DNA from: Candidatus Omnitrophota bacterium
GTDB lineage: Bacteria; Omnitrophota; Gorgyraeia; Zapsychrales; JANLHA01
Reading direction: 5' to 3'
Assembly (NCBI GenBank): GCA_024653845.1
Contig: JANLHA010000031.1
Span: 1 to 17,909 of the forward strand
DNA length: 17,909 nucleotides
Shown here: positions 264 to 10,964 of the stretch, piece after piece
How the letters are laid out: the number at the start of each line of letters is the position of its first letter
Numbering within the stretch: position 1 is the first letter of the stretch
Position numbers and translations under genes: made by a program
The notes under the pieces: model-generated
The model's database searches: none
Told to the model about the DNA's origin: nothing
Seen by the model: only the letters and a program-made list of their open reading frames with translations

Positions 264-803
264 ATGTCAGATCCTATCGAAAAACGTTTGCAGGAAAAGT
301 TCAAAGAGATTCCTAAGTGGGCCGAAGACTTTCCTTTGGATCACCCGAAGGACGCCAATATTTCCCGACGAGATTTTATTCGGTATTTGGGGTTGGTATC
401 CCTTGGTTTTTTTGCCACGACCCTGGGTGTGTGGGTCAAGGCATTGTTTAAATCGCAACAGGTGCATTCTTACACTTCGATGAAGATTGTCGATCGAGAC
501 GATTTGAAGATTGGGGAGTCTTATGTTTTTGAAATTGCAGGCGTCAAAGAACCGGCTATCTTGGTACGATTAAATCAAGATGAATTTGTCGCTTTTGGAC
601 AAAAATGCACGCATCTTCAATGCCCGGTCATTTGGAAAAAAGATGAGAAAATTTTATTCTGTCCTTGCCATAAAGGTGCGTTTAATGGAACTACGGGCGA
701 TGTTCTTTACGGACCGCCCGAACGTCCACTTCCTAAACTCAAGATTGATGTGAGAACCGACGGTATTTATTTTGTTGGCATGGAAAGGGGAGAGTTGGTA
801 TGA
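264..803 (+). CDS. TAT-exported, membrane-anchored Rieske [2Fe-2S] protein
   Basis: A 179-residue protein. Residues 35-60 hold a twin-arginine signal (SRRDFIRYLG) and a hydrophobic stretch without a clear cleavage site, so the protein is probably anchored with its Fe-S domain outside the cytoplasm. The Rieske domain spans about 70-175, with cluster ligands C115/H117 (CTHLQC) and C133/H136 (CPCHKGAF); C120 and C135 are placed to form the usual disulfide. The length fits quinol-linked Rieske subunits, but no cytochrome b gene follows. The start at 264 has AAGGA 7-8 bases upstream, and the stop overlaps the next ATG as ATGA, which implies translational coupling. It probably links a quinol pool or a cytochrome to the adjacent ferredoxin subunit and nitrate reductase-like enzyme; that partner is inferred from context. 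Confidence 0.9.
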   Translation: MSDPIEKRLQEKFKEIPKWAEDFPLDHPKDANISRRDFIRYLGLVSLGFFATTLGVWVKALFKSQQVHSYTSMKIVDRDDLKIGESYVFEIAGVKEPAILVRLNQDEFVAFGQKCTHLQCPVIWKKDEKILFCPCHKGAFNGTTGDVLYGPPERPLPKLKIDVRTDGIYFVGMERGELV

Positions 804-1072
804 AATTTTCAGATAAGAAAGAAGAATTTACCCATACCATTGAATCGGTGTGTCTTTTTATGAGTTTGGGAGCGATTTTCTTCCAAATTTGGGTGCTCAT
901 CTCCGGGATCGAAGCTTATTTGAGAGGTAACTATGCCGCATTATTCCCAACCATGATTTTGAGTGGATTGGCCTTTCTCTTCTGTGGCATCGGCGTGCTT
1001 TTGACAAATGTCGATTTCTTAAAAGGCATGGCGGAAGGCCGCAGTAAAACCTATCAGAAAAAGAGTTCTTAA
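800..1072 (+). CDS. Small two-TM membrane protein of the nitrate module (possibly DUF6755-like)
   Basis: A 90-residue protein starting within the stop of the Rieske gene (ATGA overlap). It has a short charged N-terminus, two hydrophobic helices at about 15-37 and 46-68, and a basic C-terminal tail ending YQKKSS. There are no cofactor-binding motifs (no conserved His pair), so it is unlikely to be a cytochrome. Small proteins with this layout and position sit beside Rieske and Fe-S subunits in other nitrate reductase clusters; I recall a family labelled DUF6755 but cannot verify membership here. Likely role: a membrane anchor or assembly partner for the Rieske/ferredoxin subunits. That role is inferred only from the overlap and the neighbours. 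Confidence 0.75.
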   Translation: MKFSDKKEEFTHTIESVCLFMSLGAIFFQIWVLISGIEAYLRGNYAALFPTMILSGLAFLFCGIGVLLTNVDFLKGMAEGRSKTYQKKSS

Positions 1073-1085
1073 AGAAAGACAGATT

Positions 1086-2582
1086 ATGCAAGAACGTGCA
1101 ACGGCCCAGTCTCATCGGGTCCTTTTTTTAAATACATTGGCCTTTACGATTTGTTTTGCAGCGTGGATGCTCAATGGGGTGCTTGTCACTTTTTTGTCGT
1201 CGAACCAAGTGTTCAATTGGGGGCCGGTTGAAATCGGTTGGCTTATGGGGATCCCGGTATTGACCGGATCTCTCTTTCGTTTGCCAGCAGGGATGTTGAC
1301 GGATAAATTTGGCGGAAAGCCTGTTTTTGGAGCGGTGCTTTTATTCTGCGCAATTCCAATGTATTTGTTGTCGTACGCCAATAATTTTATGGAATTTGCG
1401 TTTTGTAGTTTTGGTTTTGGGTTGGTGGGAGTAAGTTTTTCGATTGGGATCGCTTTTTCCTCTGTCTGGTATCCTAAAAAAATGCAAGGTACGGCGTTGG
1501 GAATCTTTGGAGCTGGAAACGCTGGTGCGGCCTTGACAACATTGATCGCGCCAAAAGTTTTAAACATCCTCACTCAAAATGGAGAAAATCTTGAAGGGTG
1601 GAGAATGCTCCCCAAGTATTACGCGGCAATCCTTTTTCTCATGGGGATTGTATTTCTTGTTTTTTCGATCAATAAAAAACCATTGTCCAGCAGCAAACAT
1701 TGGGTGGACATGCTTCAACCTTTGAAACATGTGAGGGTTTGGCGTTTTGGTCTTTATTACTTTTTGGTATTCGGATGTTTTGTAGGTTTCTCCCAATGGC
1801 TGGTACCTTATTTTGTCAGCGCTTATTATATGCCGCTTGTAACAGCTGGTATTTTGGCTTCCTTTTTTAGTTTCCCTTCGGGACTAATTCGCGCTCTCGG
1901 TGGATGGATATCGGACAAATGGGGGGCTAGAAAAGTCATGTATTGGGTCCTGGGGGCGTCAACCATCATTTCTTTTCTATTAATTATTCCTAAGATGGAA
2001 ATTTATTCTCCGGGGCAGGGTGTGATAGCGACAAGTCCAGGTATTGTCACGCAGGTGGATTCAGAGTCGATAAAGGTGGGAGACAAAGCCTACACGTTCA
2101 TCCAGAAGCAGGCCGAAAATGAAAATTATGATGAAAAACTTCTTATTTTCCCCACCAAAGAAATTTGGCAAGAGCCCCTCGTTAAAGTTAATCAAAGGGT
2201 TGAAAAGAAACAGTTGTTGGCCAAGGGGATAACCCGGATCTATTTTCAGGCCAATGTTTGGATTTTTGCTTTTTTGGTTTTTGTGTTGGGTGTGATTTGG
2301 GGGATTGGAAAAGCCGCGGTTTATAAACATATTCCGGATTATTTCCCTGAAGAAGTCGGGGTCGTCGGTGGAATGGTGGGGGTTTTGGGTGGGCTGGGTG
2401 GATTTTTTTGTCCAATCATTTTCGGTTATTTGCTCCAAAACACAGGGTTATGGACGAGTTGCTGGATGTTTATATTTCTTCTGTCAGGTATTTGTCTTTG
2501 GTGGATGCACGCAGTCATTGTGCATATGATGAGAATGAAAAATCCGGCTTTGGTTCGTCTCATTGAAAATGAGGTCACTTAA
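1086..2582 (+). CDS. narK: NarK/NNP-family nitrate/nitrite transporter with an inserted extracytoplasmic domain
   Basis: A 498-residue MFS permease of the nitrate/nitrite porter family. It has twelve predicted helices. The two substrate-binding arginines lie in TM2 (R65, GSLFR) and TM8 (R269, GLIR). The nitrate signatures are a Gly-rich GIFGAGNAGAA at 139-149 (TM5) and GVVGGMVGVLGGLGG at 425-439 (TM11). Unusually, the TM9-TM10 loop carries about 85 extra residues (roughly 303-388). This insert looks like two beta-rich halves, around GIVTQVDSESIKVGD and PLVKVNQRVEKKQLLAKG, similar to a barrel-sandwich (lipoyl-like) fold. Standard MFS topology puts that loop on the outer side. The start at 1086 follows a weak AAAGAAAG region. 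The gene sits 13 bases after the small membrane protein and 14 before a second transporter, so all are probably one transcript. Substrate direction (nitrate/proton symport or nitrate/nitrite exchange) cannot be read from the sequence. Confidence 0.92.
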   Translation: MQERATAQSHRVLFLNTLAFTICFAAWMLNGVLVTFLSSNQVFNWGPVEIGWLMGIPVLTGSLFRLPAGMLTDKFGGKPVFGAVLLFCAIPMYLLSYANNFMEFAFCSFGFGLVGVSFSIGIAFSSVWYPKKMQGTALGIFGAGNAGAALTTLIAPKVLNILTQNGENLEGWRMLPKYYAAILFLMGIVFLVFSINKKPLSSSKHWVDMLQPLKHVRVWRFGLYYFLVFGCFVGFSQWLVPYFVSAYYMPLVTAGILASFFSFPSGLIRALGGWISDKWGARKVMYWVLGASTIISFLLIIPKMEIYSPGQGVIATSPGIVTQVDSESIKVGDKAYTFIQKQAENENYDEKLLIFPTKEIWQEPLVKVNQRVEKKQLLAKGITRIYFQANVWIFAFLVFVLGVIWGIGKAAVYKHIPDYFPEEVGVVGGMVGVLGGLGGFFCPIIFGYLLQNTGLWTSCWMFIFLLSGICLWWMHAVIVHMMRMKNPALVRLIENEVT

Positions 2583-2596
2583 AGATAAGGAAAATT

Positions 2597-4192
2597 ATGC
2601 CACAAATTAACATTCACAATTGGGACGTTGAAGACGTGAAATTTTGGGAATCTCAAGGTCAGAAAATCGCCACCCGAAATCTTTGGATTTCGATTCCTGC
2701 GTTGCTGCAATCTTTTTCGATTTGGATCATGTGGGGAATGATCATTGTGCAAATGAAAAAGTTAGGCTTCACGTTAGGGATGCCTCATCAGACTCCCGAA
2801 GATTTAAAAATTTTTAATGAGATGTTATGGACGTTGCCGGCAATCGCAGGGCTCGCAGGGGCCACCCTGAGGATCCCCAATTCATTTCTCATTGCGATCG
2901 GCGGCGGTCGCAATGTGGTTTTTTTCTCGACATTGCTTCTTTTGATTCCTTCGATCGGCGCGGGATTTGCACTTCAGAATGTTCATACGCCATATTATGT
3001 GTTTGCTATATTAGCTGTTTTTTCCGGATTTGGCGGCGGTAATTTTGCGTCGTCGATGTCCAATATTTCTTTCTTTTTCCCAAAACGAATGCAAGGCACA
3101 GCGCTGGGGTTAAACGCAGGACTTGGAAACTTAGGTGTGAGTGTGATGCAATTTCTGATTCCGGTCGTCATTACCGCGGGATTTTTTGGAAGCCCTGCTG
3201 GCGCGGGGTTGCCACTGATCGAAGCGGATGGGACCAAGGCAGCCGGCACACTTGTTTTTATCCAGAATGCAGGTTGTTTGTGGACGCCATTCTTAATTTT
3301 ATCGGCGATTGCCGCGTTTTTTGGGATGAATAATTTGAAAAGCGCAACGCCTGAACTGGGGAACTATCCCGCAGAGTTTTCTAAAATTGCGCTTCTGATC
3401 AGTTTTGGATTGATCGCGGCAGGAGTGGGTGCTTATTTGCAGACAATTTTAAAGCTTAATATGTGGCTTGTTCTTCCGATCACCATCCTTTTGACGTTAT
3501 TCTTGATGAAGTTTTTTTCACCCAAACAGATTAAGGGAAATCTGGCCAAGCAATTTGCAATATTTAAGAATAAGCATAACTGGATCATGACCATTCTGTA
3601 TGTCATGACTTTTGGTTCTTTCATTGGATATTCTGCATCTTTTCCAAAGTTGATTCAAGATGTCTTTGGATATTTGCCCGACGGACAGGTCAATCCTAGC
3701 GCGCCGAATCCTATGACGTGGGCATTTTTGGGGCCATTGGTCGGAGCTTTAATCCGTCCCGTCGGTGGATGGTTTGCCGATAAGATCAATAGCGGATCGA
3801 AGGTCACCACCTGGAGCACGATTGTGCAGGTCGTCGCGGCATTAGGGGTGGCCTTCTTTATTGTTAAAGCCAAATCCTTGGCCACACCCGAAACATATTG
3901 GTGGCCGTTTTTTATTTTATTTATGATTCTTTTTATGGCAACAGGGATTGGGAACGGTTCAACATTTAGAAGCATTCCCTATATTTTTCCGAAAGAACAA
4001 GCGGGGCCCGTATTGGGTTGGACATCAGCGATCGCAGCTTACGGCGCGTTTATCATCCCAATCATTTTCGGACAGCAGATCAAGGTTGGGCATGCGGAAT
4101 ACGCGCTTTACGGGTTTACGATTTATTATATTGTTTGTCTTTTCTTAAATTGGTATTATTACGATCGGAAAAATTCAGGAATCAAATGTTAA
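2597..4192 (+). CDS. narK: NarK2-type nitrate/nitrite antiporter
   Basis: A 531-residue nitrate/nitrite porter, clearly a different subtype from the gene before it. Signature 1 is GLNAGLGNLG (171-180) and signature 2 begins GPVLGWTSAIAAYGAF (470-485), both typical of NarK/NarU-like exchangers. The conserved arginines are R92 (ATLRIP) and R387 (GALIRPVGG). Two extra helices (about 263-281 and 287-306) sit between the two six-helix halves, giving about 14 helices, as in several long NarK2 proteins. The start follows AAGGAAA with good spacing. Having both a NarK1-like and a NarK2-like protein side by side is known from denitrifiers, where one brings in nitrate with protons and the other exchanges nitrate for nitrite; the same division of labour is likely here but inferred. 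Confidence 0.93.
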   Translation: MPQINIHNWDVEDVKFWESQGQKIATRNLWISIPALLQSFSIWIMWGMIIVQMKKLGFTLGMPHQTPEDLKIFNEMLWTLPAIAGLAGATLRIPNSFLIAIGGGRNVVFFSTLLLLIPSIGAGFALQNVHTPYYVFAILAVFSGFGGGNFASSMSNISFFFPKRMQGTALGLNAGLGNLGVSVMQFLIPVVITAGFFGSPAGAGLPLIEADGTKAAGTLVFIQNAGCLWTPFLILSAIAAFFGMNNLKSATPELGNYPAEFSKIALLISFGLIAAGVGAYLQTILKLNMWLVLPITILLTLFLMKFFSPKQIKGNLAKQFAIFKNKHNWIMTILYVMTFGSFIGYSASFPKLIQDVFGYLPDGQVNPSAPNPMTWAFLGPLVGALIRPVGGWFADKINSGSKVTTWSTIVQVVAALGVAFFIVKAKSLATPETYWWPFFILFMILFMATGIGNGSTFRSIPYIFPKEQAGPVLGWTSAIAAYGAFIIPIIFGQQIKVGHAEYALYGFTIYYIVCLFLNWYYYDRKNSGIKC

Positions 4193-4216
4193 TTTATGGT
4201 TGGACAGAGACAGAAT

Positions 4217-4657
4217 ATGTTGCCGCGCATTGTTTCAATTAATATTTCAAAAGGGGGGATCCCTAAGATTCCTGTTTCTTCCATTCGTGTCACCGTCGCT
4301 GGTTTAGAGGGAGACGGGCATAATCATGCTAAGCACAATACCCCTCTTCAAGCGGTTTGTATCCAAGATGTAGAAAAACTAGAAGAACTCAATCAAAACG
4401 GTTATCAGCTGAGTCCAGGTCAAGCTGGAGAAAATTTAACCGTCCAAAATTTGCATGTGAATAGTTTGCCGTTAGGAACAATCCTTACATTTTCTGGAGG
4501 TGTTGTTCTTGAGATTTCTAAGGTGAGAAAGCCTTGTTATGTCATGGATGCCATTCATCCGCAATTGAAGGAAGACGCTTTGGGAAGGCACGGGATGTAC
4601 GCCAAGGTCCTGCAGGAAGGCACTCTTCAAATTGGTGCTTCAGTTACGCTTCGTTAG
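4217..4657 (+). CDS. MOSC-domain protein
   Basis: A 146-residue stand-alone MOSC (molybdenum cofactor sulfurase C-terminal) domain. Recognisable blocks are the N-terminal strand PRIVSINIS, the GLEGDGHNH loop with His residues (30-37), PGQAGENLTV (67-76), and the conserved cysteine in RKPCYVMD (C107), which in this family handles sulfur or binds the Mo cofactor. An upstream in-frame ATG at 4196 would add seven residues; I prefer 4217 because family members begin close to the first strand, although no strong ribosome site is visible at either. The gene follows the second NarK gene by about 25 bases, which fits a role in maturing or supporting the molybdoenzyme predicted upstream of the window. 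The substrate is not determined. Confidence 0.87.
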   Translation: MLPRIVSINISKGGIPKIPVSSIRVTVAGLEGDGHNHAKHNTPLQAVCIQDVEKLEELNQNGYQLSPGQAGENLTVQNLHVNSLPLGTILTFSGGVVLEISKVRKPCYVMDAIHPQLKEDALGRHGMYAKVLQEGTLQIGASVTLR

Positions 4658-6092: not shown

Positions 6093-7577
6093 ATGTATCA
6101 AGCCGAAAAATTCACCCTAGCACACCGCGAAATTGAAGAGATTTTGACAAAATCATTCAAAGAGCTTGCGGATATCAAATTTGCTTTGGATGAATCCGCT
6201 ATTGTCTCCATCACCGATCAAAAGGGCAAAATCACTTTTGTGAATGACAAGTGTTGTAAAATTTCTAAATATTTTCGAGAAGAGCTTTTGGGTCAAGATC
6301 ATCGCGTGTTCAATTCAGGACATCATCCTAAAGAATTTATGAGGGATTTATGGGCGACTATTACCCAGGGGAAGGTCTGGCGCGGTGAAATTAAGAATCG
6401 GGCCAAAGATGGAACATTTTACTGGGTTGATACGACCATTGTTCCTTTCTCAAATGCTACGGGTCAACTTTATCAATATGCTGCCATCCGTCACGAGATT
6501 ACCCAACAAAAAGTAGCTGAAGAAGCTCTTTCGGCCAGCGAAGAGAAATTTAGAGATTTTTTTGAAAATGCGCCGGTGGGTTTTCATATTTTGGATAATC
6601 ATCAACTCTTTCTTGATATCAATAAAACGGAATTGGAAATGATCGGCTATCAGAGAAATGAGGTCATCGGTAAGAAGTTTTGGAGGGATCTGGTCTGTCC
6701 CGAGATGAAAGCGCAACTTGAGCAAGATTGGCAACTCATTTCAAAACATGGAGAAATCTTAAACAGGGAATGCACCCTGATCCATAAAAGTGGTCGGCCT
6801 ATACATGTGTTGCGCAATGTTGCTGCGAAATTTGATCAATCCGATCGCCTTATCAGCACGCGAGGAAGTATTATTGATGTTACTGAAAAGAAAAGAATGG
6901 AAGATGCCATCAAAGAATTGCCTCAGCAAATCCTTGTCGCTCAGGAGGAGGAACGTAAGCACATTGCCCAGGAGATCCATGATGATTTTGGCCAACTGTT
7001 GATTGCGTTAAAGATTTTTCTTGTCAACAATATGACAGATTTTATAGAGAAATATCCTGAACTGCAACAGCTGAATGATGACCTTAAGATCAAAATTAAC
7101 GAGATTATTCAGAATGCGAGGAATTTATCCCATAAGTTGGCCCCGCCACACTTGGAATATACAGGATTGATACGGGCGCTTAAAGAATTGATCGAAAATA
7201 TGGGATTAGATAAGAAATTCTCAATCAAATTTGTGCATCGGAATCTCAAGAATATCGATTTTGAAAAGAAAGACATTATTATCTTCAGGATTGTTCAGGA
7301 GGCTTTGGCCAATATTGTGAAACATTCTGGGGCTAAAAATATTGAAATGGGTTTGCAGCATAGAGGAGGAAAAGTCCATTTAAAGATCAAGGACGATGGG
7401 GAAGGATTTATTCCTAGGGAATATGTAAAATCCAACATGAAGAGTTTAGGGATTTCTGTGATGAGAGAGCGCGCCAAGCTGGCGGGAGGTATCTTACAAA
7501 TAAAATCAGCTCCTGGGGCGGGAACCCAAATTCGTCTCAGTGTTCCCATTAAGGAAAAACAAAATGTCAAGAAGTAG
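6093..7577 (+). CDS. Soluble double-PAS sensor histidine kinase (HisKA_3, NarX/NreB type)
   Basis: A 494-residue kinase without membrane helices or signal peptide, so it senses a cytoplasmic cue. PAS1 covers about 34-140 and resembles the Aer-like PAS with its PAC segment ([10 protein letters not shown] and [17 protein letters not shown]). PAS2 covers about 150-266. A HisKA_3 dimerisation domain follows, with phosphoacceptor H296 in EIHDDFGQ, then an HATPase domain with the N box ([12 protein letters not shown]407), a G box DDGEGF (435-439) and [11 protein letters not shown] at the end. This architecture pairs with NarL/FixJ regulators, and exactly such a gene follows, overlapping by 14 bases. 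PAS domains may bind haem, flavin or a redox ligand; no cysteine cluster like that of NreB is evident. The start is ATG 6093 with a modest AGGA about ten bases upstream. Confidence 0.92.
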
Positions 7578-8205
7578 AATCATCATTGCCGATGATCACA
7601 CCTTTGTCAGAGTTGGATTGAAAGAGCTTATCAATAAAGATCCTGACCTCATGGTTGTTGCTGAAGCAAAGAATGGGCAAGAACTTTTAGATGTCTTGGT
7701 GAATAAGAAATGTGATCTTGTTGTCATGGATATTTCCATGCCGGAGATGGACGGTGTGACAGCCATTCAGGAAATCCGTGGGAAGTATCCAAAGCTTAAA
7801 ACGCTCATCCTCTCCATGTTGAAAGATTATACGCATTTTCATGAAGTCATGGCTCGTGGAGCTTGTGGGTATATGGTCAAAGATGATGCCCCGGAGCAAC
7901 TTCCTTCGGCGATAAAAACGATTTTGCAGGGGAAGAAATTTGTTTCTCCTTCGGTTGCAACAATGCTTGCCGAACGGGAATTGCGGTCTCTCAACGAATC
8001 GGTCCCGTCTTTAGAAATTCTTACCCGTCGTGAAAAACAAATTCTTACCATGATTGCCAAGGGGATCCCTAATAAGAATATTGCTTCCAGACTCAAAATC
8101 AGCATCCGTACCGTCGAGCACCATAGAGGCAATCTGACCGATAAATTAGGTTTTAAGGACCCGACTTCTCTCATCAAGTACGCCATCGAGAAAGGCATTA
8201 TTTAA
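7564..8205 (+). CDS. NarL/FixJ-family response regulator
   Basis: A 213-residue regulator. The receiver domain (1-122) has acidic residues D10/D11, phosphoacceptor D56 ([12 protein letters not shown]), S84 and K106. A LuxR-type helix-turn-helix spans about 152-205, with [15 protein letters not shown] and the recognition region [18 protein letters not shown]. The start at 7564 (AAGGA upstream, 14-base overlap with the kinase gene) is better than the GTG at 7540, because family members begin three to five residues before the first strand. The overlap makes it the obvious partner of the upstream kinase. About 100 bases past its stop lies a perfect palindrome with NarL-like half-sites, which may be its target in front of the stress operon; that link is inferred. 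Confidence 0.94.
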
Positions 8206-8304: not shown

Positions 8305-8336
8305 CCCAGAAATAGGTAGCGCTACCTATTTCTGGG
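8305..8336. promoter_or_regulatory. Perfect 32-bp palindrome with two NarL-like half-sites
   Basis: The left half CCCAGAAATAGGTAGC (8305-8320) is exactly mirrored by 8321-8336. Each arm contains TACCTAT (8323-8329, and its complement at 8312-8318), which fits the NarL heptamer consensus TACYYMT, but the two heptamers point outward around GCGC rather than in the classical inward 7-2-7 order. A -10-like TATATT at 8351-8356 would put the palindrome centre near -42, the usual place for an activator contacting RNA polymerase. A nearer TATAAG (8338-8343) would instead suit a repressor. It lies between the response-regulator gene and the stress-type operon. No T tract follows, so it is not a classical terminator. 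Confidence 0.7.
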
Positions 8337-8362
8337 CGTATAAGACCCCATATATTGATTTC

Positions 8363-8381
8363 TTGTTATTTGATATAACAA
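8363..8381 (+). promoter_or_regulatory. Inverted repeat at the predicted start of the stress-operon transcript
   Basis: TTGTTAT (8363-8369) and ATAACAA (8375-8381) are perfect 7-bp arms around a five-base loop, about 40 bases before the first ATG. It may be an operator or a small RNA hairpin in the leader. Function unknown. Confidence 0.35.
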
Positions 8382-8419: not shown

Positions 8420-8797
8420 ATGATAAATAAAACGATGTTGATCATCGACGATCACAAAGATTTTAGAGGAATGCTCCGATGGTTTATTGAGAATCGGGTT
8501 AAAGATATTGAGATCAAAGAAGCTGCAACAGGAGAAGAGGGCGTGGACATGGCCATCGCAGAAAAACCTGATATCAGTCTGATTGATATTCGTTTGCCAG
8601 GGATTGACGGAATTGAAACGGCAAAACAAATCAAGCAACGAGTCCCTGAAAGTCAGATTATTACGATGTCAATGTTTAAACAGAGTTCTGTGGAAAGCCT
8701 GATTGCCCAACAAGTCGTTATTTTTTTAAATAAAGAAACAATTGATAGCGAGTTGATTCCGCTTTTATATAAATTATTCAATGAGAATAAAACATAA
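8420..8797 (+). CDS. Stand-alone receiver-domain response regulator
   Basis: A 125-residue protein consisting only of a receiver domain: acidic D10/D11, phosphoacceptor D56 (SLIDIRLPGIDG), S84 in TMSM, and K105 in FLNKE. There is no output domain. In-frame TTG at 8363 would extend it, but that extension runs through an inverted repeat and the GGAAGGAG ribosome site (8398-8405), so ATG 8420 is chosen; spacing to AAGAG (8408-8412) is also acceptable. It is the first gene of a run with a winged-helix protein, a DUF883-like protein, a holin-like protein and Hsp20. The receiver resembles those of NarL-type regulators, so it could act as a phosphate sink or relay for the upstream kinase, or signal by protein contacts. 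That role is inference. Confidence 0.85.
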   Translation: MINKTMLIIDDHKDFRGMLRWFIENRVKDIEIKEAATGEEGVDMAIAEKPDISLIDIRLPGIDGIETAKQIKQRVPESQIITMSMFKQSSVESLIAQQVVIFLNKETIDSELIPLLYKLFNENKT

Positions 8798-8811
8798 AAA
8801 TGGGGGCAGAC

Positions 8812-9057
8812 ATGATTACGGAAATTGGAATTATTGCAGGAGCCATCTTAGAGTTTCTTGAAGAGAAGCAGAGTCCAGTAAGCATCACCGAAATTAAACT
8901 TCATTTGGATGAACCCCGTGACCTGATTAACATGGCCATCGGTTGGCTCATCCGTGAGAATTATGTCCATATTGTCAGAGATGGCCAAGAATACTTTGTG
9001 TTCTCAAAAGAACCGTCTTTTTCAAAGATTTTTGAAAAATGTTTATGTGCTAAATGA
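8812..9057 (+). CDS. Small winged-helix protein (DUF2582-like)
   Basis: An 81-residue protein. Its pattern IGIIAGAILEFLEEK, then SITEIKLHL, then a helix with NMAIGWLIRENYVHIVRDG, matches the small winged-helix family labelled DUF2582, in which the phrase 'A-GWL-RE' is characteristic. The C-terminus adds FSKEPSFSKIFEKCLCAK with two cysteines near the end. ATG 8800 is also in frame, but ATG 8812 has GGGGG just upstream and fits the family start better. It follows the receiver-only regulator by 14 bases and precedes the DUF883-like gene by about 34. It may bind DNA or mediate protein contacts in the same response; the family has no firm general function that I know of. Confidence 0.72.
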   Translation: MITEIGIIAGAILEFLEEKQSPVSITEIKLHLDEPRDLINMAIGWLIRENYVHIVRDGQEYFVFSKEPSFSKIFEKCLCAK

Positions 9058-9091: not shown

Positions 9092-9439
9092 ATGTTAGCC
9101 ACCGAGAATCAATATAAAACCAGCAGTGGAAAGATTTCTGAGGCCCTTGAACTGCTCAATGAAGCGGCCAAAGAAAAGAAAGATGAATTGAAAGGATTGT
9201 TGACTGATAAATATTCTCATATTAAGCAGGCGATGGCCGCTGGAACAGAGCAAGGCAAGCAAATTTTAGAGAAGGCAAAGCATTTGACTCAAGATGCGAT
9301 TGTTGGAGGAGAAGAGAAAATCAAAGAGGTGGTGAGCGAGGCGGATAAGCGAGTACATAAAGATCCATGGCCATATATCGTTGGTGCCGCTGCATTTTCT
9401 CTTCTTTTCGGGTATTTGATGGGTTCAAAACACAAGTAG
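9092..9439 (+). CDS. DUF883-like (ElaB/YqjD-type) tail-anchored protein
   Basis: A 115-residue protein. Residues 10-90 are a charged, Lys/Glu/Ala-rich amphipathic helical region. They are followed by VHKDPWPYIVGAAAFSLLFGYLMGSKHK, in which a PW dipeptide precedes a Gly-rich single membrane helix (about 93-111). This is the layout of the ElaB/YqjD/DUF883 family, whose E. coli members are stationary-phase inner-membrane proteins reported to bind ribosomes. The start at 9092 has a strong AGGAGGG upstream, and longer in-frame extensions overlap the previous gene out of frame and are rejected. The neighbours (a holin-like membrane protein and Hsp20) are common companions of DUF883 genes in stress clusters. 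Confidence 0.83.
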   Translation: MLATENQYKTSSGKISEALELLNEAAKEKKDELKGLLTDKYSHIKQAMAAGTEQGKQILEKAKHLTQDAIVGGEEKIKEVVSEADKRVHKDPWPYIVGAAAFSLLFGYLMGSKHK

Positions 9440-9459: not shown

Positions 9460-9891
9460 ATGTCGATAGTAAAATTGATTCGAAAAATTCTTTCCCCATT
9501 ACTCTTTCTTAATATCGTTAGGAGATATCAAGGAAGATCAGCTTTGATAAAAATCAAAGCTGCCCAATTTTATGTGCAGGGTGTCCAAAAGGCGCGAATC
9601 GTATCCTTAGGTTTGATACTCGCATTGATTTCACTGGTATTTCTTGCAGGCGGGCTGACCCTGATCCATACAGCACTCTTTTCCTATTCGATGTGGAGCG
9701 TTGAAGTGAAGTTTTTTGTGGCCCTTTTATTAGGTATTTTGGAGTTTCTCGGGGCGATAGGAATTTTGTTTCATTTGTTCAGAGAAGAAACTTGGGCCAA
9801 GTTTTCCGAAGTTGAAAATGTCGTCAATTCCGTTGTCGACGGCACAAAACAAGAAAAGAGGTCAGAAGCAGGAGTTGTAAATAGAAACTGA
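9460..9891 (+). CDS. Two-TM membrane protein (phage-holin-3_6/DUF1469-like)
   Basis: A 143-residue protein with a basic N-terminal region, two hydrophobic helices (about 46-72 and 82-107) separated by a short turn, and a charged C-terminal tail ending EAGVVNRN. Proteins of this plan, often labelled phage holin superfamily or DUF1469, regularly follow DUF883 genes in genomes, and the pair probably acts together at the inner membrane. There is no evidence here of a prophage, so lysis is unlikely. The start at 9460 has AAGGAG at 9445-9450, and the earlier in-frame start at 9367 lies inside the DUF883-like gene. The family call rests on topology and context rather than on a specific motif. Confidence 0.68.
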   Translation: MSIVKLIRKILSPLLFLNIVRRYQGRSALIKIKAAQFYVQGVQKARIVSLGLILALISLVFLAGGLTLIHTALFSYSMWSVEVKFFVALLLGILEFLGAIGILFHLFREETWAKFSEVENVVNSVVDGTKQEKRSEAGVVNRN

Positions 9892-9907: not shown

Positions 9908-10372
9908 ATGAAACTCGTACCATGGAGAGAAAAGGGAGCTGGGTTGGATTTATTCGAAGATCTCGAAGATTTCCAGCGAGAAATGAATCGTCTGTTTGAT
10001 GTCACTTTACAGCGTCCCTTGAAAGCAGGAAATGGCGGACCATTTATGGCGCCCGCTGTTGACATCGTTGATGAGAAAGACCAGATCAGGGTCAAGGCCG
10101 ATCTCCCAGGAATGAAAAAGGAAGAGATTGAAGTCGATCTCGAGAATGACATTCTTACTATCAAGGGAGAAAAGAAAGAGGAAAGAGAAATCAAGGAAAA
10201 GGATTTTCTCCGATCCGAGCGTTATTATGGAGCCTTTCATCGCGCATTTAGTCTTCCATCAAGCGTTGATGCCTCCAAAGTTAACGCGGTGTATAAGGAC
10301 GGTGTCCTTGAAATCACTTTGCCTAAAAAAGAAGGAGCAAAGCCGAAACAAATCAAAGTTGATATTAAATGA
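9908..10372 (+). CDS. hsp20: Hsp20/alpha-crystallin small heat-shock protein
   Basis: A 154-residue ATP-independent holdase chaperone. An N-terminal arm (1-45; WREKGAGLDLFEDLEDFQREMNRLF split by Phe/Leu) precedes the alpha-crystallin domain (about 48-142). That domain contains VDIVDEKDQIRVKADLPGM, the GAFHRAFSLP segment, and the closing signature YKDGVLEITLPK. A short basic tail ending KQIKVDIK supplies the I-x-V-like contact (IKV) that drives oligomer assembly. A strong AAAAGGAGG ribosome site precedes ATG 9908, implying high output. It ends the five-gene stress-type run and is followed by a hairpin. No CIRCE or sigma-32 site is visible, so control is more likely through the upstream palindrome. 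Confidence 0.96.
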   Translation: MKLVPWREKGAGLDLFEDLEDFQREMNRLFDVTLQRPLKAGNGGPFMAPAVDIVDEKDQIRVKADLPGMKKEEIEVDLENDILTIKGEKKEEREIKEKDFLRSERYYGAFHRAFSLPSSVDASKVNAVYKDGVLEITLPKKEGAKPKQIKVDIK

Positions 10373-10481: not shown

Positions 10482-10964
10482 ATGCCAACAAAAAGAATAA
10501 AAGATTATTTGGATAATAATAAAATTAAGTATGCTGTCCTCAATCATCCGGCAACCTATACTGCTCAGGAAACGGCCCAGAGTGCGCATGTCTCCGGCAA
10601 AGATATGGCAAAAACAGTGATTGTAAAGATGGATGGGCAGACAGCCATGGTTGTGCTTCCAGCCTCATACAAGATCAATCTTGGTTTTTTACAGGAAATC
10701 ACTGGATCAGAAGACATTAGGCTTGCTACCGAGGAGGAATTTAGAAATATTTTTCCGGATTGTGAAATGGGTGCCATGCCGCCTTTGGGCAATCTGTATT
10801 CGGTGGATGTTTATGTTGCTCGAAGATTGGTAGAAGATGAGGAAATTGCCTTCAACGCCGGTAATCACAGAGAATTGATTAAGATGAAGTACAAAGATTA
10901 CGATCGCTTGGTACGTCCTTTGATTTTTGATTTAACGTATGAACCTTTCAAGGCGATTGATTAA
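10482..10964 (+). CDS. YbaK/EbsC-family aminoacyl-tRNA deacylase-like protein
   Basis: A 160-residue single-domain protein of the YbaK/ProX editing family, which hydrolyses mischarged tRNAs such as Cys-tRNA(Pro) or Ala-tRNA(Pro). Recognisable segments are HPATYTAQETAQSAHVSG at the N-terminus, KDMAKTVIVKMDG with the family lysine (40-52), the GAMPPLGN loop, and FNAGNHRELIKMKYKDY near the end. The start at 10482 has AGGAGA about nine bases upstream. It stands between the Hsp20 hairpin and a degraded gene, apparently as its own unit. Substrate amino acid cannot be read; in this subgroup, proteins are often annotated only as YbaK/prolyl-tRNA synthetase-associated domain. Confidence 0.88.
   Translation: MPTKRIKDYLDNNKIKYAVLNHPATYTAQETAQSAHVSGKDMAKTVIVKMDGQTAMVVLPASYKINLGFLQEITGSEDIRLATEEEFRNIFPDCEMGAMPPLGNLYSVDVYVARRLVEDEEIAFNAGNHRELIKMKYKDYDRLVRPLIFDLTYEPFKAID

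Follow-up and report, generated by a model that had tools for sequence, protein, structure and literature searches.

The DNA that we analyzed, hereafter the window, is a stretch of 17,909 nt from a Candidatus Omnitrophota bacterium (GCA_024653845.1, contig JANLHA010000031.1). A palindrome (CCCAGAAATAGGTAGC/GCTACCTATTTCTGGG) lies in it between a sensor kinase-regulator gene pair and a run of genes ending in Hsp20 (Table 1). Its arms (8305-8320 and 8321-8336, 16 nt each) are 100% complementary and separated by a spacer of 0; it starts 99 bp past the stop of the NarL/FixJ regulator gene, and 83 bp lie between it and the ATG at 8420. The repeat and its setting were thus exactly as an earlier sequence-only reading of this DNA had described them, including the five-gene run. 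The best operator match had 5 mismatches in the 109-bp gap before the YbaK-type gene, which may be the last gene of the run, and 6 mismatches upstream of the kinase gene. Among the matches listed for the regulator, the closest five shared 65-75% identity and all came from Candidatus Omnitrophota, the next one following at 42%. A search of plasmids returned five records, similar in the PAS domain only. Upstream, at 264-4657, the window encodes a Rieske protein, two MFS transporters (NarK-like by eye) and a MOSC protein, which suggest a nitrate or respiratory cluster.

Table 1. Features of the window around the palindrome (positions in the window; "." where the feature has no strand)
Feature	Position	Strand	Basis or remark
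Sensor histidine kinase, two PAS, HisKA_3, HATPase; PAS1 of FAD type (MmoS, Aer, NifL)	6093..7577	+	domain and PDB matches
NarL/FixJ-type response regulator, recognition helix RTVEHHR	7564..8205	+	domain and PDB matches
32-bp perfect palindrome	8305..8336	.	as in the sequence-only reading
Core operator TAGGTAGCGCTACCTA, predicted strong dimer site	8313..8328	.	centre ~-65.5; family in 17/19 regulator genomes
Predicted degenerate second dimer site GGCGTATAAGACCCCA	8335..8350	+	centre ~-43.5; conserved columns 23-28, 33-38
-35-like slot TATATT	8351..8356	+	stacked-site alignment
Predicted -10 TATAAC	8374..8379	+	column-62 peak; 17-bp spacer
Predicted transcription start	8386	+	inferred from -10; 34 nt before ATG 8420
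Receiver-only response regulator, first gene of predicted operon	8420..8797	+	domain match
DUF2582 winged-helix protein	8800..9057	+	PF10771 E 3.6e-11
Small protein, weak ElaB-like match	9092..9439	+	E 3.2e-4, 21 bits vs cut-off 139; no Pfam match
Small protein, membrane-like by eye	9460..9891	+	no family match
Hsp20 small heat-shock protein	9908..10372	+	PF00011 E 5e-28
YbaK-type aminoacyl-tRNA editing protein, possible last gene of run	10482..10964	+	PF04073

Such a palindrome is expected by chance 5.8e-6 times per window and 6.7e-4 times per 2.07 Mb, and 60 Markov-1 simulations of the window produced no arm longer than 12, which bears out the earlier claim that it is unlikely to be accidental. 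The 32-mer is single copy in its own genome at up to 3 mismatches (2.07-Mb, 395-contig, 87%-complete assembly). In the genome search that had been proposed for the half-site, the 15-nt CTACCTATTTCTGGG had no second copy at up to 1 mismatch and two copies at 2 mismatches. Only the inner 16 bp, TAGGTAGCGCTACCTA (8313-8328), is found again elsewhere. Over 60 other sites, the outer 8 pairs matched on average at 2.18/8, the random level; all 8 paired at a single site (L218, an AT repeat) and at most 6 at the remaining ones. A general trend to longer palindromes was rejected on this ground, and the perfect 32-bp extension (8305-8312 and 8329-8336) is therefore peculiar to this genome. As the unit of the operator, the whole palindrome thus gave way to its recurring core, the outer 8+8 bp not being shared. 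In four of the five closest relatives (L002, L004, L005 and L006), a palindrome likewise lies downstream of the regulator gene, and the common part is the 16-bp core TAGGTA-N4-TACCTA, with one end base differing in L005. In the fifth, L003 (genome G051), the regulator gene is directly followed by one for a P-type-ATPase-like protein (assigned by eye), beyond which lie two sites.

The core is one member of an operator family, TAVGTA-N4-TACBTA. Near-palindromes of the core type (up to 2 mismatches) were found in 9 of 24 loci around regulator matches; beside orthologs of 50-57% identity, six of them carried TAMGTA instead of TAGGTA and one, in G009, carried TAGGTA. We searched the 54 genomes of the order for exact copies of TAVGTANNNNTACBTA, with an ortholog cut-off of E<=1e-60. 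The pattern occurred in 17 of the 19 ortholog-carrying genomes versus 5 of the 35 without an ortholog (Fisher p=7.2e-8), a count that is partly circular because we drafted the pattern already knowing sites next to the regulator in many of the genomes concerned, G335 included. The reversed pattern, serving as control, was present in 16/19 and 29/35 genomes, respectively (p=1). Counted as exact places, motif and control amounted to 49 and 48 in the regulator-positive genomes and to 7 and 68 in the regulator-negative ones, so that the excess is visible only against the latter. G048 (36% identity, E 7.5e-38) was counted as regulator-negative, and two regulator-positive genomes, G014 and G022, had no exact sites. 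According to a crude ORF caller, applied to the motif sites only, the sites outside ORFs of at least 100 aa numbered 45 of 49 in positive and 4 of 7 in negative genomes.

In a phylum sample of 384 genomes (regulator cut-off E<=1e-50, 7 candidates scored per genome), the regulator was found in 21 genomes, every one from the same order, and the pattern occurred in 19 of these versus 80 of the 363 others. Three of the 21 (G335, G358 and G363) lie outside the 54, and all three have sites; L006 comes from G335, and its site was seen before the pattern was drafted, leaving G358 and G363, first looked at afterwards, as the only independent tests. Both matched. A search of the window's own genome for TAGGTAGNNCTACCTA at 3 mismatches gave 11 places versus 163 for the reversed control and was too loose to use. 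Palindromes of the type TACGTAACATTACGTA were noticed in G078 and G338, which belong to other families of the phylum and in which the regulator ortholog was not found; they are perhaps sites of another regulator. Overall, the sequence rules of the predicted operator are readable across related genomes.

We stacked 39 of the 56 exact sites, oriented by their downstream gene, and numbered the columns from the first base of the 16-mer. Left out were five in-gene sites (L202, L205, L207, L215 and L219) and 12 intergenic sites judged by their downstream gene. The stacked sites share a third half-site, TA(C/G)GTA, at columns 23-28 and a weaker TAC--A at columns 33-38, which together form a degenerate second 16-bp site 22 bp downstream of the first. 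These are followed by a -35-like hexamer, TTtA--, at columns 39-44 and, after a 17-bp spacer, by TATAnT at columns 62-67. The TATAAT score at column 62 averaged 3.69, compared to 2.01 over all columns (z 4.0); a second peak of 3.41 stood at column 39, and the columns on the upstream side all remained at or below 2.31. The sequence-only reading had assumed a -10, for which it named no coordinates, that placed the palindrome near -42. The hexamer fitting that choice is TATATT, which occupies the conserved -35 slot; the -10 given by the stack moves the centre of the palindrome to about -65.5.

From 32 of the stacked sites we built a sequence-only model of 72 bp (R1), keeping out the nrdD sites of G003 and G004, two MarR-type sites, one lipoprotein site, one aquaporin site and the nuoA site. 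R1 scored the window site at E 5e-10, this site belonging to its training set. In the same genome it found six places at E<=1.2e-5 (five training sites and a new one, C243:3625) plus three weak ones; it did not find the near-match C225:3418, which we took as chance. Among the 12 intergenic sites that had been left out of the stack, R1 found five (L129:1824, L195, L203, L204 and L217) and missed seven (L185, L192, L194, L201, L208, L213 and L218). At E<=0.1, it hit 16 of 19 regulator-positive and 5 of 35 regulator-negative genomes (14 and 2 at 1e-3), a genome count that is again partly circular because R1 was trained almost only on regulator-positive genomes. The positives missed were G003, G004 and G022, and the nrdD sites of the first two depart from the downstream promoter plan. 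Strong R1 sites lay in two regulator-negative genomes, G008 and G015, where the regulator ortholog was not detected; our guess is that the gene is missing from these assemblies. Outside the training set, R1 located ten distinct places in G335, G358, G363, L004 and L005, with E from 1e-8 to 6e-5 for 78 kb.

Related sites do precede functionally linked genes in relatives, as a regulon would have it. Family models identified pyruvate:ferredoxin oxidoreductase, an ion-pumping pyrophosphatase, hemerythrin, an Rrf2 regulator and NorB behind the operator in G037, and NorB and Rrf2 in G035. These two genomes, in which P-type ATPase and acetate-CoA ligase are also targets (the ligase of G037 scoring under its cut-off), belong to the same genus, so that several targets are non-independent. 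The models further recovered ATP-type PEP carboxykinase in G051 and G358; NrdD in G003 and, as the second gene, in G012 and G052; NrdG in G052 and a radical-SAM NrdG-like protein in G012; FeoB in G013; molybdopterin oxidoreductase and disulphide oxidoreductase in G051; copper nitrite reductase (NirK) in the regulator-negative G008; and a decaheme-type cytochrome in the window's own genome. By similarity or by eye only, we assigned pyruvate:ferredoxin oxidoreductase (G035), pyrophosphatase (G000 and G035), NrdD (G004), Hsp20 (G019), acetate-CoA ligase (G034 and G035) and PEP carboxykinase in the regulator-negative G015. A universal stress protein (Usp) gene lies after the site in L004 and before the site in G051. 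Kinase and regulator stand in one run with nrdD and an nrdG-like gene in G012, and with a receiver and a hemerythrin-like gene in G034. Several downstream genes of no known function are also present, e.g., in L191 and L313. We read the predicted regulon as a largely anaerobic and nitrogen-oxide programme of which protein-protection and stress genes are one part.

Genes for receiver-only proteins recur in first position after the operator (window, L127, L131, L214, L206 and L318). Such a protein may serve as a phosphate sink or as feedback on the kinase.

The best PDB matches of the first PAS domain of the sensor were MmoS (3ewk, E 4.6e-48), Aer (8dik) and NifL (2gj3). The flavin-pocket residues H53, N85 and R115 of Aer, and their counterparts in MmoS, are named in excerpts of PMC9668731. 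In our own alignment, the window sensor retains H, N and R. Across 22 sensor rows, these are kept in 21, 21 and 18, respectively, and all three in 18; the rows short of the full set are G001, G004, G363 and L005. No sensor was found in the examined loci of G003, G022 and G027. The conserved pocket suggests that PAS1 may bind FAD. In this respect it resembles Aer, MmoS and NifL; unlike in these proteins, the PAS domain is part of a HisKA_3 kinase whose partner is a DNA-binding regulator.

We compared the system with characterized ones. The regulator fails the curated FixJ model (78.3 bits, cut-off 255) and the curated NarL model (139.1 bits, cut-off 250), and the sensor fails the FixL model (29.1 bits, cut-off 850); we therefore set the system apart as a variant. 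In the PDB, the regulator is closer to VraR (2.3e-32), NarL (2.3e-30) and DevR (3c3w, 3.2e-26) than to FixJ, DevR not being the nearest. The NarL heptamer consensus is TACYNMT, and the sequence-only reading had seen NarL heptamers in an outward arrangement. TACCTAT does occur on both strands of the palindrome in this direction, but the argument is weak: the 16-bp inverted repeat has the length of a 7-2-7 site, and many family members leave the direction undecided, TACGTA being identical to its reverse complement. Unlike a NarL site, the family has the half-site TAVGTA, and the window reads inward TAGGTAG, off consensus, where TACYNMT would stand.

The recognition helix of FixJ shares the form RTVE-x-HR with that of the window regulator. 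Excerpts of PMC4999443 give GTAMGTAG as the motif selected by FixJ in vitro, TAAGTAATTTCCCTTA as the 16-bp fixK site, two FixJ-protected regions in the fixK promoter (-69 to -44 and -57 to -31) and fixK as the only known conserved FixJ target. As far as these excerpts go, the alphaproteobacterial FixLJ system resembles the present one in joining a PAS kinase to a NarL/FixJ-type regulator of low-oxygen genes and in having a 16-bp TAAGTA/TAMGTA site (TAGGTA being the window's own half-site) with a second promoter site, here 22 bp on. It differs in that the predicted direct target set is broad here, whereas fixK alone is known as a conserved target there, and in that the sensor PAS is here of the FAD type, its best matches being flavin sensors. 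The DosRST/DevR system of Mycobacterium, an unrelated phylum, uses the half-site GGGACT and haem GAF sensors, so that both half-site and sensor type differ. For DevR, excerpts of PMC3029386 report hspX among the targets and paired sites of high and low affinity, to which binding is cooperative and of which the one nearer the start overlaps the -35. To that extent it is similar in its NarL-family regulator, hypoxia signal, small heat-shock target and paired strong and weak sites with the proximal one at -35, both the signal and the pair being predicted in our case. Our best reading is that the system would work like FixLJ or DosRST while being a member of neither.

Taken together, these data make it probable that the palindrome serves the adjacent regulator as its strong, distal operator and that this regulator belongs to a redox-sensing two-component activator of anaerobic and stress genes. 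The sensor kinase would read the cellular redox state via FAD bound to its PAS domain and phosphorylate the regulator. The conserved spacing suggests that two regulator dimers bind side by side, one at the 16-bp palindrome near -65.5 and one at the degenerate site near -43.5, and that they bring RNA polymerase to a promoter whose -35 box is poor. Across the order, the same promoter plan precedes genes of anaerobic and nitrogen-oxide metabolism and those for chaperones, universal stress proteins and receiver-only regulators. Operator family, co-occurrence with the regulator, promoter spacing and gene list are computed results; binding, phosphorylation, activation and the redox signal are predicted from them. 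The idea of an operator of a stress regulon tied to PAS sensing hence held up for the operator, the adjacent regulator and the PAS sensor, but the regulon itself appears to be largely one of anaerobic and nitrogen-oxide metabolism.

Comparative data are neutral as to whether the regulator activates or represses, and it could instead be a repressor that blocks the promoter. We regard this as unlikely, since the fixed centres near -65.5 and -43.5 and the poor -35 box resemble promoters activated by FixJ and DevR, as far as these are described in the excerpts. Still less probable is that another protein binds the palindrome, for example the DUF2582 winged-helix protein of the operon. DUF2582-like genes do lie behind the operator in several genomes, and PF10771 is weakly associated with the pattern (14 of 22 pattern genomes versus 9 of 32 others, p=0.013), counts that are lower bounds because the search missed DUF2582-like genes recognized by eye behind operators in G001, G009, G015 and G019. 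This association is, however, much weaker than that of the regulator (17 of 22 versus 2 of 32); PF10771 is absent from eight pattern genomes and the pattern from nine PF10771 genomes. Both the operator base that tracks a residue in the regulator's recognition helix (see below) and the 16-bp form, which is like the FixJ sites given in the excerpts, also speak against DUF2582 as the binder.

An RNA hairpin acting as terminator or processing site behind the regulator gene is very improbable, although read-through would yield a stable structure (49 nt folding at -22.7 kcal/mol). The hairpin lacks a following T-run on both strands, on which ground we rejected the terminator and, as far as sequence goes, the notion that the palindrome is only an RNA 3' end. 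Moreover, the recurring 16-mer precedes many unrelated genes at a fixed distance from the promoter boxes.

The operator also varies together with the regulator. In the recognition helix RTVE-x-HR, x is His in the window, G010, G051, L004, L005, G335 and G358, Thr in most other regulators and Ala, Ser or Asn in a few. The residue x aligns with V189 of NarL. G stood at half-site position 3 in 18 of 18 half-sites of four His genomes with one regulator each, versus 6 of 66 in eleven Thr genomes. This count takes exact, intergenic sites and excludes G000, which has two regulators, the genomes whose x is Ala, Ser or Asn, and a site of G010 that lies inside a gene. At the genome level, the difference was 4/4 versus 0/11 (p=7e-4). 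A 2-mismatch site, G051:C16:27009, speaks against the rule, one of its halves being TACGTA in a His genome. The Asn genomes were mixed, G363 being without a G half-site and G009 having the TAGGTA near-match. In the tree, the His proteins fall into a single, moderately supported clade of 7 (93/64). The association is therefore a single evolutionary change observed repeatedly, although G051 (His) and G038 (Thr) belong to the same genus.

The window's own genome seems to hold both operator kinds. Its contig C214 breaks off within a second regulator, which the tree groups with that of G045, and contig C2 begins with the C-terminal part of a regulator in which x is Ala; that the two contigs adjoin is our guess. 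Other operators in this genome read TAMGTA at C162 (twice), C2 and C305, TAGGTA at C228 and TGGGTA/TAGGTA at C243. We tentatively propose, as a possibility about which we remain in some doubt, that x sets one operator base pair (TAGGTA/TACCTA for His, TAMGTA/TACKTA for Thr or Ala). In the same proposal, this bacterium would run two insulated copies of the switch, a His-type with TAGGTA and an Ala-type paralog with TAMGTA before the pyrophosphatase, the decaheme cytochrome and its own receiver.

To our knowledge, the Omnitrophota have almost no cultured members, and our searches of PMC article listings turned up no described regulon of this phylum. A rule linking one residue to one base in the NarL/FixJ family would be testable in vitro without culturing. 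For one order of this phylum, the predictions amount to a testable low-oxygen regulon, from sensor chemistry, operator rule and promoter geometry to targets.
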